A DNA stretch of 48,785 bases, taken from contig JAFGIO010000211.1 of assembly GCA_016929555.1 (NCBI GenBank), positions 1-48,785 on the forward strand. The letters run 5' to 3'. This stretch comes from Deltaproteobacteria bacterium (GTDB taxonomy: Bacteria; Desulfobacterota; Syntrophia; Syntrophales; JAFGIO01). Of the stretch, positions 37,547 to 44,593 are shown one piece after another (positions within the stretch are counted from its first letter, which is position 1; every line of letters starts with the position of its first letter). Under the pieces are notes generated by a model. That model was not told the DNA's origin. It saw only the letters and a list, made by a program, of their open reading frames with translations, and did not search any database. The position numbers and the translations under genes are program-made.

Positions 37547-37819
37547 ATGACGAAGGCGGAATTAGTAGCTGTGATGGCGGATGAAGCGGGGATCACGAAA
37601 GCGGCAGCAGGGAAGGCGCTTCAGGCCTTTGTGGACTCGGTGGGAAAGGAACTGAAGAAGAATGGGAAGCTTGGACTCGTTGGATTCGGCACTTTTTCCG
37701 TCGTAAAGAGAAAATCCAGAGAGGGCAGGAATCCCCAGACAGGCAAGACCATCAAGATTCCGGCGAAAAAAGTGGTTAAGTTCAAAGCAGGGAAGGCCCT
37801 TTCCGAAAAGGCCAAGTAG
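37547..37819 (+). CDS. HU family DNA-binding protein
   Basis: A 90-residue histone-like protein, full length. '[18 protein letters not shown]' begins the helical body; '[21 protein letters not shown]' is the DNA-binding arm with the conserved Arg-Asn-Pro, and '[15 protein letters not shown]' the end. It forms a dimer that bends DNA. A strong site AAGGGGGGCAAG precedes the ATG and a hairpin terminator follows, so it is a single-gene unit. Confidence 0.97.
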
Positions 37820-38087: not shown

Positions 38088-39077
38088 TTGACGAGGAAAC
38101 GCATCGTTAGCGGCATGAGGCCCACGGGGAAGCTGCATCTTGGAAACCTTCACGGAGCCCTGGCCAACTGGGTCGATCTCCAGAACAGCGGGGAATACGA
38201 TTGTTTCTATTTCGTGGCGGACTGGCACGCCCTGACCAGCGATTACGGCAATACGGAACAGATCCGGGAGTACGCTCTGGGCATGGCCATGGACTGGCTC
38301 AGTGTCGGTCTCGATCCAGGCAAAAGCACCCTTTTTATTCAGTCCCGCATCCAGGAGCACGCCGAGCTTTTTCTTCTCCTTTCCATGATTACACCCCTGC
38401 CATGGCTGGAGAGGAATCCCACCTATAAGGAGATGAAATCGGAGCTTGCCGACAGGGACCTATCGACCTTTGGTTTTCTTGGTTATCCGGTTCTGCAGGC
38501 TGCGGATATCATCATATATAAAGCCTACGGTGTCCCGGTAGGGGTCGATCAACTCCCCCACATAGAGCTGACCCGGGAGATCGCCCGACGGTTCAATTTC
38601 TTTTACCGGGAGATCTTCCCTATTCCGGAACCGCTGCTGACGAATGTACCGAAACTCCTCGGCACGGACGGACGAAAAATGAGCAAATCCTACGAGAATT
38701 CCATTTACATCAGCGATCGGGCCGATGTTCTCAAGGGCAAGGTAGAATCCATGTTCACGGATCCGCAGAGGATGCGGCGCAGGGACCCCGGGAGGCCGGA
38801 ACTTTGTAATGTCTTTTCTTTTCATGGAATCTACTCAAGCGAGGCCGATGTCCAGGAAATTTCAAGGGAGTGCAGACAGGCAGGCATAGGCTGTACGGAC
38901 TGCAAACGTCGTCTCGCCGCAAGGATCGGGGAGGCCATGATGCCCGTTCACGACCGCCTGGCCTATTATCAAAACCATGTCAATGAAGTCGAGGAAATCA
39001 TGACTGAGGGCACGCTCAGGGCAACAGGGGAGGCACGGGCTACCATGCAAGAGGTCCGGGAAGCCCTGAAGATCTAA
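38088..39077 (+). CDS. trpS: Tryptophanyl-tRNA synthetase
   Basis: A 329-residue class I synthetase that charges tRNA-Trp. The HIGH-type motif is 'PTGKLHLGN' (12-20) and the KMSKS loop 'GRKMSKSYEN' (195-204); both are intact and the length is normal. The start is TTG (TTGACGAGG), five bases after AAGGGAGG; no ATG lies near with a site. No T-box or attenuator was recognised upstream. It begins a plus-strand operon, ending two bases before scpA. Confidence 0.96.
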   Translation: MTRKRIVSGMRPTGKLHLGNLHGALANWVDLQNSGEYDCFYFVADWHALTSDYGNTEQIREYALGMAMDWLSVGLDPGKSTLFIQSRIQEHAELFLLLSMITPLPWLERNPTYKEMKSELADRDLSTFGFLGYPVLQAADIIIYKAYGVPVGVDQLPHIELTREIARRFNFFYREIFPIPEPLLTNVPKLLGTDGRKMSKSYENSIYISDRADVLKGKVESMFTDPQRMRRRDPGRPELCNVFSFHGIYSSEADVQEISRECRQAGIGCTDCKRRLAARIGEAMMPVHDRLAYYQNHVNEVEEIMTEGTLRATGEARATMQEVREALKI

Positions 39078-39799: not shown

Positions 39800-40321
39800 A
39801 TGGAACATATCAAGGCAATCATCGAAGCCCTCGTTTTTGCTTCCGAATCTCCATTGTCTATCGATAGGATCGCTGAAACCCTGGAAGGCATCGATCGAAA
39901 GGAAATCGTTGCGGTGCTCTCCACCCTCGCGGAAGAACATGAGGCTCGCGGCGGCGGTTTTTTGCTCAAGGAGGTTGCCCAGGGATTTCAATTCAGGACG
40001 AGGCCTTCCCTTGGCTCCTGGATAAGGCGCCTCAAGCGTTCCAAACCCTTGACCCTGACCCCGGCAGCCTTGGAGACCCTCGCCATTGTCGCCTATCGCC
40101 AGCCCGTCGTCAAGGCGGAGATCGACCGAATCCGGGGCGTCGATGCGGGAGGACCTCTCAAGGGACTGTTGGAAAAGAAACTGGTTCGCATCCAGGGCCG
40201 CAAAGATGTACCTGGGCGTCCGATCATTTATGGAACGACGAAGAAGTTTTTGGAGGTCTTCACGCTTAAGGACCTTTCGGAATTGCCTACTTTGAAGGAA
40301 TTCAAGGATCTGCAGGGATGA
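39800..40321 (+). CDS. scpB: Segregation and condensation protein B
   Basis: A 173-residue winged-helix partner of ScpA in the SMC complex. 'IIEALVFASESPLSIDRIAE' opens the first domain; 'LETLAIVAYRQPVVKAEIDRIRGVD' marks the second, and 'GRPIIYGTTKKFLEVF' the end. The length is normal. It starts directly after the scpA stop and lies seven bases before rluB, an arrangement common in many bacteria. Confidence 0.96.
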   Translation: MEHIKAIIEALVFASESPLSIDRIAETLEGIDRKEIVAVLSTLAEEHEARGGGFLLKEVAQGFQFRTRPSLGSWIRRLKRSKPLTLTPAALETLAIVAYRQPVVKAEIDRIRGVDAGGPLKGLLEKKLVRIQGRKDVPGRPIIYGTTKKFLEVFTLKDLSELPTLKEFKDLQG

Positions 40322-41111: not shown

Positions 41112-42569
41112 CTATCGAGGTCCGGAATCCCTATCCCGAATCCTGACAACGACTTTTACTGTCGGGAGCTTTCCGTTCTTGAACTGTATGTTTGGAGGAA
41201 CGATCAACCGGGGCGTCAAGACAGAAGTCGATTTCAGAGTGCTGAGATCGATCGGTTCCGTACGGATACGGATCCGTTCATGCTGAAGCCTGCCGGGAGC
41301 GAGGACCGTGATGGAAGGCGGAACGGCTGTGATCCGGGTCAGGATTCGCCCGCCCGCTGGTTCCTTTTCCGTGACGACATCTATCGGAACAAGGACGGAC
41401 ACATAACGAGAGGCCACGATAGTAATATGGCCGGGCTGTATGCTCGCGACATAGAGGTTGGAAGGCTTGTTAACCATGTCCCTTGCAAGAACGATGTCCT
41501 GTTTGCCTTTTTGAATCTGCGAGAGGTCCAGCGATAGCTTTAGTACCGACGGATCGAGGAGCTGGAAGGCCTGCGAAGTGCCCGTCAACAGCAGCTTCAC
41601 CTCGGCGATCTTGGGTTCTTCAATGACCCATTCCGGTGAAAGATTCCTGTATTCGATGGGCACCGTGAAATCCCTGCGCACGGAATCCTTCTGGTATCCA
41701 AAGAAAAGCCACAACAGGCAGGCCAGCAGCAGGGCGATCCCTTTCTCTCGCGTGTTTTCCTTCCACCATCGTGGGAACGGACGTCCGCCCTTTTCGGGAT
41801 TCTGTTTTGAGATGAAGGATTCCAATACATTCCGGAGGGCTGAGGCACCGGTTATTTCGTTGAACCGTTCTCCCTGGGCAATAGAGATGGTGCCCCGCTC
41901 TTCGGAGACAACGATGCAAAGGGCGTCTGATCTTTCGGCGAGGCCGATGGCTGCCGTGTGGCGAAGACCGAGGTTGCCGAAGCGTTCGGCGTCCTGTGAC
42001 AACGGGAGATGACAGCCGAATCGGGTGATTCTGCCGTTCTCGATGATGGCCGCTCCGTCATGGCCAGCAGAATGGGGATCGAAAATACTCTCCAACAGCG
42101 GCTGGCTCAAAAGACCGTCCAGGCGGGTGCCGCCGGAAAGATGCCGCTCCAAGGGGACCTCGCCGTGGATTACGATCAGGGCACCGATCTTGTTGCGGGC
42201 GAGATTGGTCGTTGCCTCGGCGATCGTGTCCACACTTGGAACCGTGGGAGTCCTGGCCCTCAGCGGCAGCCTGAATCTGCCCCACATGGCCAGGCTCTCG
42301 AAAAAACGGCGCAGATCTTCCTGAAAGATGACAACTAGGACAAAGAGTAGGATGGCGAAAAAGCCTTGAAGGACAATTGTCGTAAGATAGAGCTGAAGGA
42401 ATCTCGCCAGCAGATAAACAGCCCCGAGAAGGCTGATTCCAATGAAAACAAATCGCGAGGCCCTGTCCTTGAACCAGATCAGCAATGCCGATATCATGAC
42501 GGCGATGATGATGATATCGAGGATGTCCTGAATTCTTAGGCTGTAGAGGACGGTCAGCACATTATCCAT
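41112..42569 (-). CDS. cdaA: Diadenylate cyclase CdaA fused to YbbR/CdaR domains
   Basis: A 485-residue membrane protein making c-di-AMP from two ATP. Three N-terminal helices (about 14-32, 40-60, 65-82), then the DAC domain (about 105-255) with its two diagnostic motifs 'HDGAAII' (170-176) and 'LRHTAAIGLAERSDA' (202-216), 'VSEERGTIS' at 221-229. After this a fourth helix (about 277-292, 'KGIALLLACLLWLFFGYQ') is followed by two YbbR-like beta modules (about 299-390 and 391-478). In Bacillus and others CdaA and its regulator CdaR are separate adjacent genes; here they form one chain with cyclase inside and YbbR modules outside. The ATG at 42569 has GAGG seven bases upstream; a TTG four codons earlier is the alternative. 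Confidence 0.88.
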   Translation of the reverse strand: MDNVLTVLYSLRIQDILDIIIIAVMISALLIWFKDRASRFVFIGISLLGAVYLLARFLQLYLTTIVLQGFFAILLFVLVVIFQEDLRRFFESLAMWGRFRLPLRARTPTVPSVDTIAEATTNLARNKIGALIVIHGEVPLERHLSGGTRLDGLLSQPLLESIFDPHSAGHDGAAIIENGRITRFGCHLPLSQDAERFGNLGLRHTAAIGLAERSDALCIVVSEERGTISIAQGERFNEITGASALRNVLESFISKQNPEKGGRPFPRWWKENTREKGIALLLACLLWLFFGYQKDSVRRDFTVPIEYRNLSPEWVIEEPKIAEVKLLLTGTSQAFQLLDPSVLKLSLDLSQIQKGKQDIVLARDMVNKPSNLYVASIQPGHITIVASRYVSVLVPIDVVTEKEPAGGRILTRITAVPPSITVLAPGRLQHERIRIRTEPIDLSTLKSTSVLTPRLIVPPNIQFKNGKLPTVKVVVRIRDRDSGPR

Positions 42570-42852
42570 GATGGGCCTCAATCTCTTTCTTGTGCCGTTT
42601 TATCAAAGCAGTTCGAAAGCGCAATCGGGGTAGATTTACTCGTTTATATAGAATATGGTAAGTCAAAGTCAAGCCAGCAGGGGGGCACGGGACTGGTGAT
42701 TGTGAAATTGTGTACACCGATCGAGGGAATGAAGGCGTAGAAGGCCGGGGACCCTTTCATACGCCGGCAAGGCGCGTCATTGGAATGTTTGGACGAAGGG
42801 GATGCCATTTTCATCGGGCCGGCATGGGCCTGAATGAAGAGAGGAGGATGCC

Positions 42853-43134: not shown

Positions 43135-43316
43135 GACGGAACTTCTGTTGCCTTCAAACGGAGCCGGGAGGCATTCGCAATATTTGGGCTCTCCGCTTGT
43201 GATGTCCCGCCCCTGTGAGAGTCAGTGACGTTTCCCTCTCAGCCGATGCCGTCATCATCGGATGCCGGGTCGCGGCGAAATCTGTCGAGAGCTTCTTTCT
43301 TTCGCTCAACCTGCTC

Positions 43317-43371
43317 AAAAAAAAGCGATACATCTCCGCACTCAGATGTTCTGAAAGCGGGGGTGTATCGC
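43317..43371 (-). terminator. Rho-independent terminator of the ribbon/H1-tail gene
   Basis: On the minus strand GCGATACA pairs with TGTATCGC, with inner paired arms CCGC/GCGG and CAGA/TCTG, then eight T. It lies about 35-90 bases after the stop. It is the best terminator in the window. Confidence 0.85.
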
Positions 43372-43404
43372 TCATCGGAAGGGTGCGCCGGATTTCGGCA
43401 CCCC

Positions 43405-43719
43405 TCAAACCTTTTTGGTCCTTTTCTGCGTCTTCTTCACGGCCTTTTTCACCTTGGGAACCGGAGCTGTCTTTGTCTTTGCCTTAGGCTTTGCCTTAGG
43501 CTTGGCGGTTGCCTTGGTTGCTTTTTTCGTCACCGTCTTTTTGGGTACCGCCAGGGCTGGAGCCATTTTCCGCGCCTTGTTGGCGGCAAGCTTTCCTTTG
43601 GCCATCGGCTGTTTACAGCAAATGATCTCGGTGGCTTCACACTGACTGCCTTGATCGACGACGATGATGAGACCGCATTCCATGCAGCTGTATAAATCCC
43701 CCTGTTTCGCCTTTGCCAT
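43405..43719 (-). CDS. Desulforedoxin-like ribbon protein with histone-H1-like Lys/Ala/Pro tail
   Basis: A 104-residue protein in two parts. Residues 1-40 carry C12xxC15 and C34C35 ('YSCMECG', 'IICCKQPM'), the spacing of desulforedoxin/desulfoferrodoxin N-domains that bind iron or zinc; C27 is extra. Residues 45-104 are a disordered Lys/Ala/Thr/Pro tail with 'KPKAKPKAKTKT'-like repeats, as in histone H1 and bacterial H1-like proteins. No catalytic superoxide-reductase domain is present. I infer binding to nucleic acid by the tail and a metal or redox sensor by the ribbon. AAGGAGG is just before the ATG. It is a single gene with its own terminator. Its job is unknown. Confidence 0.8.
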   Translation of the reverse strand: MAKAKQGDLYSCMECGLIIVVDQGSQCEATEIICCKQPMAKGKLAANKARKMAPALAVPKKTVTKKATKATAKPKAKPKAKTKTAPVPKVKKAVKKTQKRTKKV

Positions 43720-43918
43720 GTCTGACTCCTCCTTGAAGTTATTTTATCTCTGGCCCCCAGAGGCCGGCCCAGCATTTCATCGATGGGAATATTACACGGA
43801 TTGTTGCCTTTATTCAAGAAATTATCCGTCACGAATGTGAGGGGATGCGAAAGATTGCGGCCTATTCTCCCGGGGCAGAGGGCGATGCTCCTTCCTGTTC
43901 TCTAGTGTTACCGGGCAT

Positions 43919-44593
43919 TCAAACCAGCAGGGCGCCGGCAATGGCAAAGAGAAGGGCCGGCACCAGGTTTCCGACGGCGATCTTTTTTAAATCCAGCAGG
44001 TTGATGCCGATGCCCAATATCATGAGCCCGCCCGTCGCCGTCACGGCATTGAGGACCCGGGGGTCCTGCAGGAAGAGGAGCTTCGAGGCCAGCAGGGTGA
44101 TGGCTCCCTGGACGGCCAGTACCGTCAGGCTCGAAAAGGCGACGCCAATTCCCAAGGAAGAAGCCAGGGCGATGGAGGCTACCCCGTCCAACAGGGATTT
44201 CAAGTAAAGCGTCGTCGGGTCTCCGATGGTTCCGTCCTGGATTGCTCCCACGATAACCATAGCCCCGGTACAATAGAGGACCGAAGCCGTCACGAAGCCC
44301 TCGACAAAGGTGGAAGAATCGGACCGGGCGCGTGACTTGAGCCACGCCCCTACTTTTTCAATCTGTCCTTCGATATCGAGCCACTCGCCCGCGATGGCGC
44401 CGAGCAGGAGACATCCTATGGTAAGGAGGATGCGTTTCCCTTCAAGGGCCATCTGGAGACCGATGAGAATGACGGCAAGGCCGAGGGCCTGCATCAGGAT
44501 TGTCTTCAGACGTTGAGGCAGATAGCGGCCGACGATCATTCCGGCTGCGCTTCCGGCGATGATGGCGCCGGTGTTGACGATGGTTCCGGTCAA
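43919..44593 (-). CDS. DUF554 family membrane protein
   Basis: A 224-residue polytopic membrane protein (about seven helices). 'TGTIVNTGAIIAGSAAGMIVG' opens it and 'GCLLLGAIAGEWLDIEGQIEK' region and 'GFVTASVLYCTGAMVIVGAIQDG' region are the DUF554 (YdfK-like) family hallmarks. Members are thought to be transporters, without proven cargo. It starts nine bases after the SHOCT gene and is the last of a five-gene minus-strand run. Confidence 0.85.
   Translation of the reverse strand: MTGTIVNTGAIIAGSAAGMIVGRYLPQRLKTILMQALGLAVILIGLQMALEGKRILLTIGCLLLGAIAGEWLDIEGQIEKVGAWLKSRARSDSSTFVEGFVTASVLYCTGAMVIVGAIQDGTIGDPTTLYLKSLLDGVASIALASSLGIGVAFSSLTVLAVQGAITLLASKLLFLQDPRVLNAVTATGGLMILGIGINLLDLKKIAVGNLVPALLFAIAGALLV

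Follow-up and report, generated by a model that had tools for sequence, protein, structure and literature searches.

What might a small bacterial protein do that joins a desulforedoxin-like metal ribbon to a histone H1-like tail? The question is raised by a coding sequence on the minus strand at 43405-43719 of the window, by which we mean the whole stretch of 48,785 nucleotides that was analysed. This sequence begins with ATG and encodes 104 amino acids; the initial annotation gave no strand, and minus refers here to the reading direction of the ORF, from 43719 to 43405. That annotation had described a CxxC plus CC ribbon at residues 12-35, a Lys/Ala/Pro/Thr tail of about 60 residues, a strong ribosome-binding site and a strong terminator, and each of these was recovered. 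The ribbon cysteines are residues 12, 15, 34 and 35, with a fifth cysteine at position 27, and the tail (residues 42-104; 43408-43596, minus strand) comprises 63 amino acids with a net charge of +24, 78% of them Lys, Ala, Pro or Thr. The ribosome-binding site, AAGGAGG (43728-43734, minus strand), lies 8 nt upstream of the ATG. Two hairpins follow the gene. The first (43379-43406, minus strand; -25.5 kcal/mol over a 71-nt stretch, z -3.2) sits directly at the stop codon and lacks a U-run, so that the strong terminator is not this hairpin but the second (43317-43373, minus strand), a long stem-loop at 43373-43323 followed by U8 (-28.5 kcal/mol, z -7.45), which a simple consensus scan for terminators missed. 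An Rfam search over 43200-44000 gave no match at E-values up to 1. The upstream neighbour, on the same strand, is a DUF554 gene, and a TIGR04076 gene converges from the opposite strand. The gene looks monocistronic, and it is present as a single copy in the source genome.

The ribbon (residues 4-42; 43594-43710, minus strand) is supported by a profile match to the desulforedoxin structure 1cfw and by alignment of a structural model to a second one, 1dxg. The protein scores 22.4 bits (E 9.4e-5) against Pfam Desulfoferrod_N (PF06397), just below the cut-off of 23, and 18 bits against NCBIfam TIGR00319, far below the cut-off of 36.05; we therefore name the ribbon ‘desulforedoxin-type’ and do not call the protein a member of either family. 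As a single sequence it matches a solved desulforedoxin at an E-value of only 0.12. A profile of 26 homologous ribbons matches 1cfw at 9.9e-7, with desulfoferrodoxins next at 4e-4 to 1.5e-3. In an AF2 model built from 30 sequences, the ribbon block has a pLDDT of 73-90, and its best PDB match is 1dxg (rmsd 0.9 Å over 36 of 36 residues, Z 4.5; Foldseek TMt 0.90, E 0.032, prob 1.00). The four ribbon cysteines are invariant in both underlying alignments, of 26 and 30 rows. The Pfam and 1cfw E-values, together with the recurrence of the same architecture in 16 families of the order, argue that the ribbon is not a chance resemblance, and sequence profile and predicted fold thus agree with its first description as desulforedoxin-like. 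The 104-residue protein lacks the superoxide reductase domain (PF01880), which is encoded by a separate gene of the source genome (at C137), and it likewise lacks an HU/IHF domain (PF00216). No named family in the libraries searched (Pfam and NCBIfam) covers the whole ribbon-tail protein.

Searching for a desulforedoxin ribbon with a basic low-complexity tail, as had been suggested initially, uncovered a conserved family and not a single case. The full-length protein matches in 28 of 60 relatives; a search of genome contigs with the window protein alone as query found no relative. The ribbon profile matched 116 of the 155 genomes sampled from the class, and these fall into two clear sets. The strong set consists of 90 genomes with E-values of 1e-16 or better, spanning 16 of the 21 sampled families. 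The weak set consists of 26 genomes, and the best weak match of any genome is 8.7e-9; most weak matches adjoin PF01880 domains and are ordinary desulfoferrodoxins. Four short ORFs of 40-59 amino acids with weak ribbon matches (G036:C65, C96 and C120, and G019:C16) do not coincide with PF01880 matches, and are perhaps stand-alone desulforedoxins in multiple copies. Named carriers of the tailed ribbon are Syntrophaceae, Syntrophobacterales, Smithellaceae and Syntrophus, from which we infer that the order is Syntrophales. The gene is absent from 65 of the 155 class genomes, including five whole sampled families (f2, f6, f11, f18 and f19) that gave no strong match, so the protein is not essential for the lifestyle of these organisms. 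No match to the ribbon-tail protein was found in phages, viral contigs or plasmids.

Among 96 distinct Syntrophales-type proteins, 94 have a tail of 25 amino acids or more at the C-terminus, and this tail is always net positive. The two short tails are both explained: one locus (L200) stops at a contig end, and the other (L223) meets a run of Ns, past which the reading is again Lys-rich. No tail in the 96 is neutral or acidic. Absent or acidic tails in close homologues had been named as what would refute the initial interpretation, and the homologues do not refute it on this count. Over all 96 proteins, the tail has a median length of 56.5 amino acids (25-102 among those at least 25 long) and a median charge of +23, and consists of 40% K, 29% A, 11% P and 7% V; its K, A and P content is like that of H1-like tails. 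The histone H1-like tail is thus real and conserved, and NCBIfam NF038053, ‘histone H1-like DNA-binding protein’, is matched by 2 of 30 family members. What is kept, however, is charge and composition more than sequence. Over 400 random pairs of the 94 proteins, cores have a mean pairwise identity of 0.60. The mean for tails, 0.49, barely exceeds the 0.43 found between tails and shuffled tails, so no sequence-specific function of the tail is indicated. The AF2 model predicts a helix that links ribbon to tail (residues 43-56; 43552-43593, minus strand) and that falls in a conserved GKAAAxKAKKKA stretch; there is no secondary structure past residue 56, and the block beyond residue 60 is of low confidence (pLDDT 56-60). 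No other tail-like protein was found in the source genome at E-values up to 1, in a comparison that scored only six candidates.

Outside this order, the position of the basic segment changes. A search of the phylum gave matches with an E-value of 1e-9 or better in 41 of 395 genomes, of which 10 belong to that order. In family f38, the tail is C-terminal in all five distinct proteins. In 27 distinct proteins from other families, a net positive Lys/Ala/Pro segment precedes the ribbon (median 18 amino acids, up to 62), and only a few basic residues follow it. That charge is kept while the end changes suggests that the combination of ribbon and polycation is under selection. The ribbon also occurs in 14 of 200 genomes sampled from the phylum of the Bathyarchaeota records, where tails are short (1-31 amino acids, net charge 0 to +10). 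A weakly resolved tree, built on the 36 columns of the ribbon core, requires at least three label changes for the Syntrophales type and at least two for the N-tailed type on well-supported branches, so that more than one tail-position event is likely, though not proven. These sets include four proteins with CEVCD or CEVCE, which lack the G of the search pattern. Start codons of homologues were picked by a simple score; one locus (L231) has no clear start, and at two (L071 and L159) the start was placed inside the true N-terminal segment, so that they were counted as having a short N-extension. Two further loci, from a Phycisphaerales record (L097) and a Desulfuromonadales record (L099), carry ribbon-tail genes very close to the Syntrophales type; their contigs may be misbinned, and they were set apart as ‘odd’, outside the Syntrophales-type set.

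Between the two cysteine pairs, the loop is X18 (CX2C-X18-CC) in 91 of 96 Syntrophales-type proteins and X19 in 20 of 27 N-tailed ones. A CxC motif lies within this loop in 79/96 Syntrophales-type, 26/27 N-tailed and 15/15 archaeal proteins. The additional loop cysteines are not required, since 11 of the 96 have none and the window protein carries just one. Most ribbon cores carry a net negative charge (median -7, range -9 to +2), so that the positive charge is confined to the tail.

The gene also has a conserved upstream element. In the family, CTTGAAA lies mostly 60-105 nt before the ATG and is followed, after 16-17 nt with a T-rich end, by TAnAAT; the window version is a promoter-like CTTGAAT-N17-TAATAT (43789-43818, minus strand). 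CTTGAAA occurs in 71 of 94 Syntrophales-type upstream regions of 160 nt, as opposed to 4 of 229 control regions, which were taken upstream of other ORFs of at least 180 amino acids in the same loci. TTGACA shows the reverse tendency (3/94 versus 22/229). The motif was not found upstream of the 27 N-tailed and 5 f38 genes. Compared with the sigma-70 consensus, the element looks like a sigma-70 promoter whose -35 box is unusual. We considered whether it marks a regulon. In nine genomes of family f14, a stricter version of the pattern (up to three mismatches) has one site each in seven, always upstream of the ribbon-tail gene as judged by coordinates, and the looser CTTGAAA-N16/17-TARAAT has 0-3 sites per genome, 13 in all versus 10 for a reversed-pattern control. 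As the loose pattern is near background and the strict one occurs only at the ribbon-tail gene in seven genomes, no regulon is indicated, and the element is, as judged from sequence, a putative gene-specific conserved promoter. Ribosome-binding sites were found in 114 of 123 upstream regions of family genes. From ribosome site, conserved promoter and terminator we infer that the protein is well expressed.

Both halves of the protein are of known kinds. Like desulforedoxin of Desulfovibrio gigas (1cfw, 1dxg) and the N-terminal domain of desulfoferrodoxin (PF06397), it has a four-cysteine ribbon with CxxC and CC, GD before it and M after it. It differs by its long basic tail, and it has no superoxide reductase domain. 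Its loop also deviates from the X15 consensus given for Dx-SOR proteins in the available part of PMC3116461, in that X18 predominates and CxC is often present. On the other side, AlgP and PhaF of Pseudomonas and HupB of mycobacteria similarly combine a folded or helical domain with a disordered Lys/Ala/Pro tail, according to the available parts of PMC9239181 and PMC5676037. The HupB tail is described there as needed for nucleoid association (PMC5676037). The AlgP and PhaF tails are described as binding, or being thought to bind, DNA, and KPAA peptides were reported to bind it in vitro (PMC9239181). The chlamydial Hc2 is described as varying in size through lysine-rich pentamers (PMC2848022, likewise available in part). 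In contrast to these four proteins as described in those excerpts, the ribbon-tail family has a metal-binding-type ribbon, a four-cysteine knob of 36 residues, and its basic part occurs at either end. Dps, which joins iron handling to DNA binding via short Lys-bearing tails (PMC8999374, in the part available), bears a further likeness to what we propose below; however, Dps is a dodecameric ferritin-like cage, and the ribbon-tail protein has no ferritin fold. A search of open-licence PMC articles, itself weak evidence on such a point, found no such fusion, so that within this literature the initial annotation's view that no system of this makeup had been described still stands. Nor did the search turn up a conserved family of such fusions with the basic segment on either side of the ribbon and a conserved gene-specific promoter.

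Taken together, these properties lead us to favour, at a probability of roughly 45%, a nucleic-acid-binding role for this small metal-ribbon protein, with a disordered polycationic tail making the contact and chromosomal DNA in the nucleoid as the most likely target. The four ribbon cysteines, placed as are the metal ligands of desulforedoxin, would bind Fe (or Zn). Desulforedoxin is dimeric, as seen in its structure, and the ribbon would dimerise in the same manner, so the protein is probably a dimer as well. Each dimer would then be a bivalent unit with two long tails of about +24, which could attach to DNA and bridge it, much as is reported or supposed for the tails of HupB, AlgP and PhaF. 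Iron in the ribbon might serve as a local electron carrier; if the metal is zinc, its role would be structural. The ribosome sites, conserved promoter and terminator fit an abundant protein, which we count in favour of a nucleoid function. Against it stand the four HU/IHF-type genes that the source genome already has, the short-tailed archaeal relatives, the many class genomes without the gene and the lack of a conserved neighbourhood tied to chromosome functions. On this last point, 57 loci were submitted to a neighbourhood count and the target was recognised in 48. The commonest neighbour, an alpha/beta hydrolase gene upstream, was found at 11 of these and the rest were scattered, and an operon, or any assignment by gene neighbourhood, was rejected for lack of a conserved context.

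A more specific form of the nucleoid reading, which we regard as speculative and rather unlikely, is that these proteins of strict anaerobes form a new class of bacterial chromatin proteins. A desulforedoxin dimer would act as the clamp and its two H1-like tails would hold the DNA, and nucleoid compaction would change as the dimer opens or closes with the state of the ribbon iron. The state in question could be Fe(III) versus Fe(II), or loss of iron with formation of disulphides between ribbon and loop cysteines on exposure to oxygen, and the polycation would be attached at either ribbon end in different lineages. Redox switching of DNA binding is just one of the options that the nucleoid reading allows. 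The initial annotation had proposed a redox- or metal-responsive protein, and this part stays a guess, since the extra cysteines are not universal and superoxide reductase shows no association with the family (see below). H1-like-tailed nucleoid proteins are known from aerobes and pathogens, and if the proposal is true, a conserved one from syntrophic anaerobes, built on a redox-metal ribbon, would tie chromosome packing directly to iron or oxygen status. The end swap of the basic segment is a natural experiment, suggesting that charge is kept, and not sequence or position.

A polycationic tail would also bind RNA, polyphosphate or acidic proteins. Of the alternatives to a nucleoid function, the one with the best, though still modest, chance is that the protein binds rRNA or mRNA and has its role in RNA folding, ribosome hibernation or condensates; the ribbon would then be a structural knob of the zinc type. 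The chemistry of the tail does not separate DNA from RNA, the small size of the ribbon suits such a role, and the strong ribosome site, terminator and conserved promoter fit a highly made protein equally well; but there are no ribosomal genes among the recurrent neighbours, and nothing points specifically to RNA. Even with RNA as the target, the family is conserved and has no name, occurs in methane-related syntrophs and lies below current database cut-offs.

We think it unlikely that the protein is instead a soluble electron carrier, an Fe(Cys)4 desulforedoxin whose tail docks electrostatically onto an acidic partner that would receive its electrons, for example ferritin, rubrerythrin or superoxide reductase. 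Desulforedoxin does occur as a domain of Dx-SOR, according to the available part of PMC3116461, and a ferritin-family gene lies one or two ORFs downstream at three loci (L090, L140 and L142; Pfam Ferritin E 1e-31 at L140). These ferritin neighbours are few (3/48), however, and superoxide reductase (PF01880) is found in 33 of the 90 carriers of the tailed ribbon compared with 32 of the 65 genomes that lack it, so that this partner was rejected. A similar comparison bears on a role as organiser of polyphosphate or storage granules, in which, as with AlgP or PhaF, the tail would tether granules to the nucleoid. The available part of PMC9239181 reports that the KPAA tail of AlgP is needed for the spacing of polyphosphate granules in Pseudomonas, and the source genome has two PPK1 genes; but PPK1 exceeds the cut-off in just 14 of the 155 class genomes, namely 4 of the 90 carriers and 10 of the 65 others, and with no positive association such a role becomes very unlikely. 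The superoxide reductase and PPK1 counts both argue against an obligate partnership. Finally, although the sequence and length of the tail vary widely, neutral low-complexity drift on an ordinary desulforedoxin is a highly improbable origin for it, as drift would also yield tail-less and non-basic forms, and a basic segment is present in nearly all Syntrophales-type proteins, with both exceptions accounted for, and at the other end in the N-tailed ones.

Two other features of the window deserve mention. One of the four HU/IHF-type genes of the source genome lies at 37547-37813 on the plus strand, with tRNA-synt_1b (38088-39077) and ScpB (39800-40321) matches within the following 5 kb. The other is a single ORF at 41112-42581 on the minus strand that encodes CdaA_N, DAC (diadenylate cyclase) and YbbR domains. 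The YbbR domain is the usual partner of c-di-AMP synthase, and this ORF is a c-di-AMP synthase fused to that partner domain.
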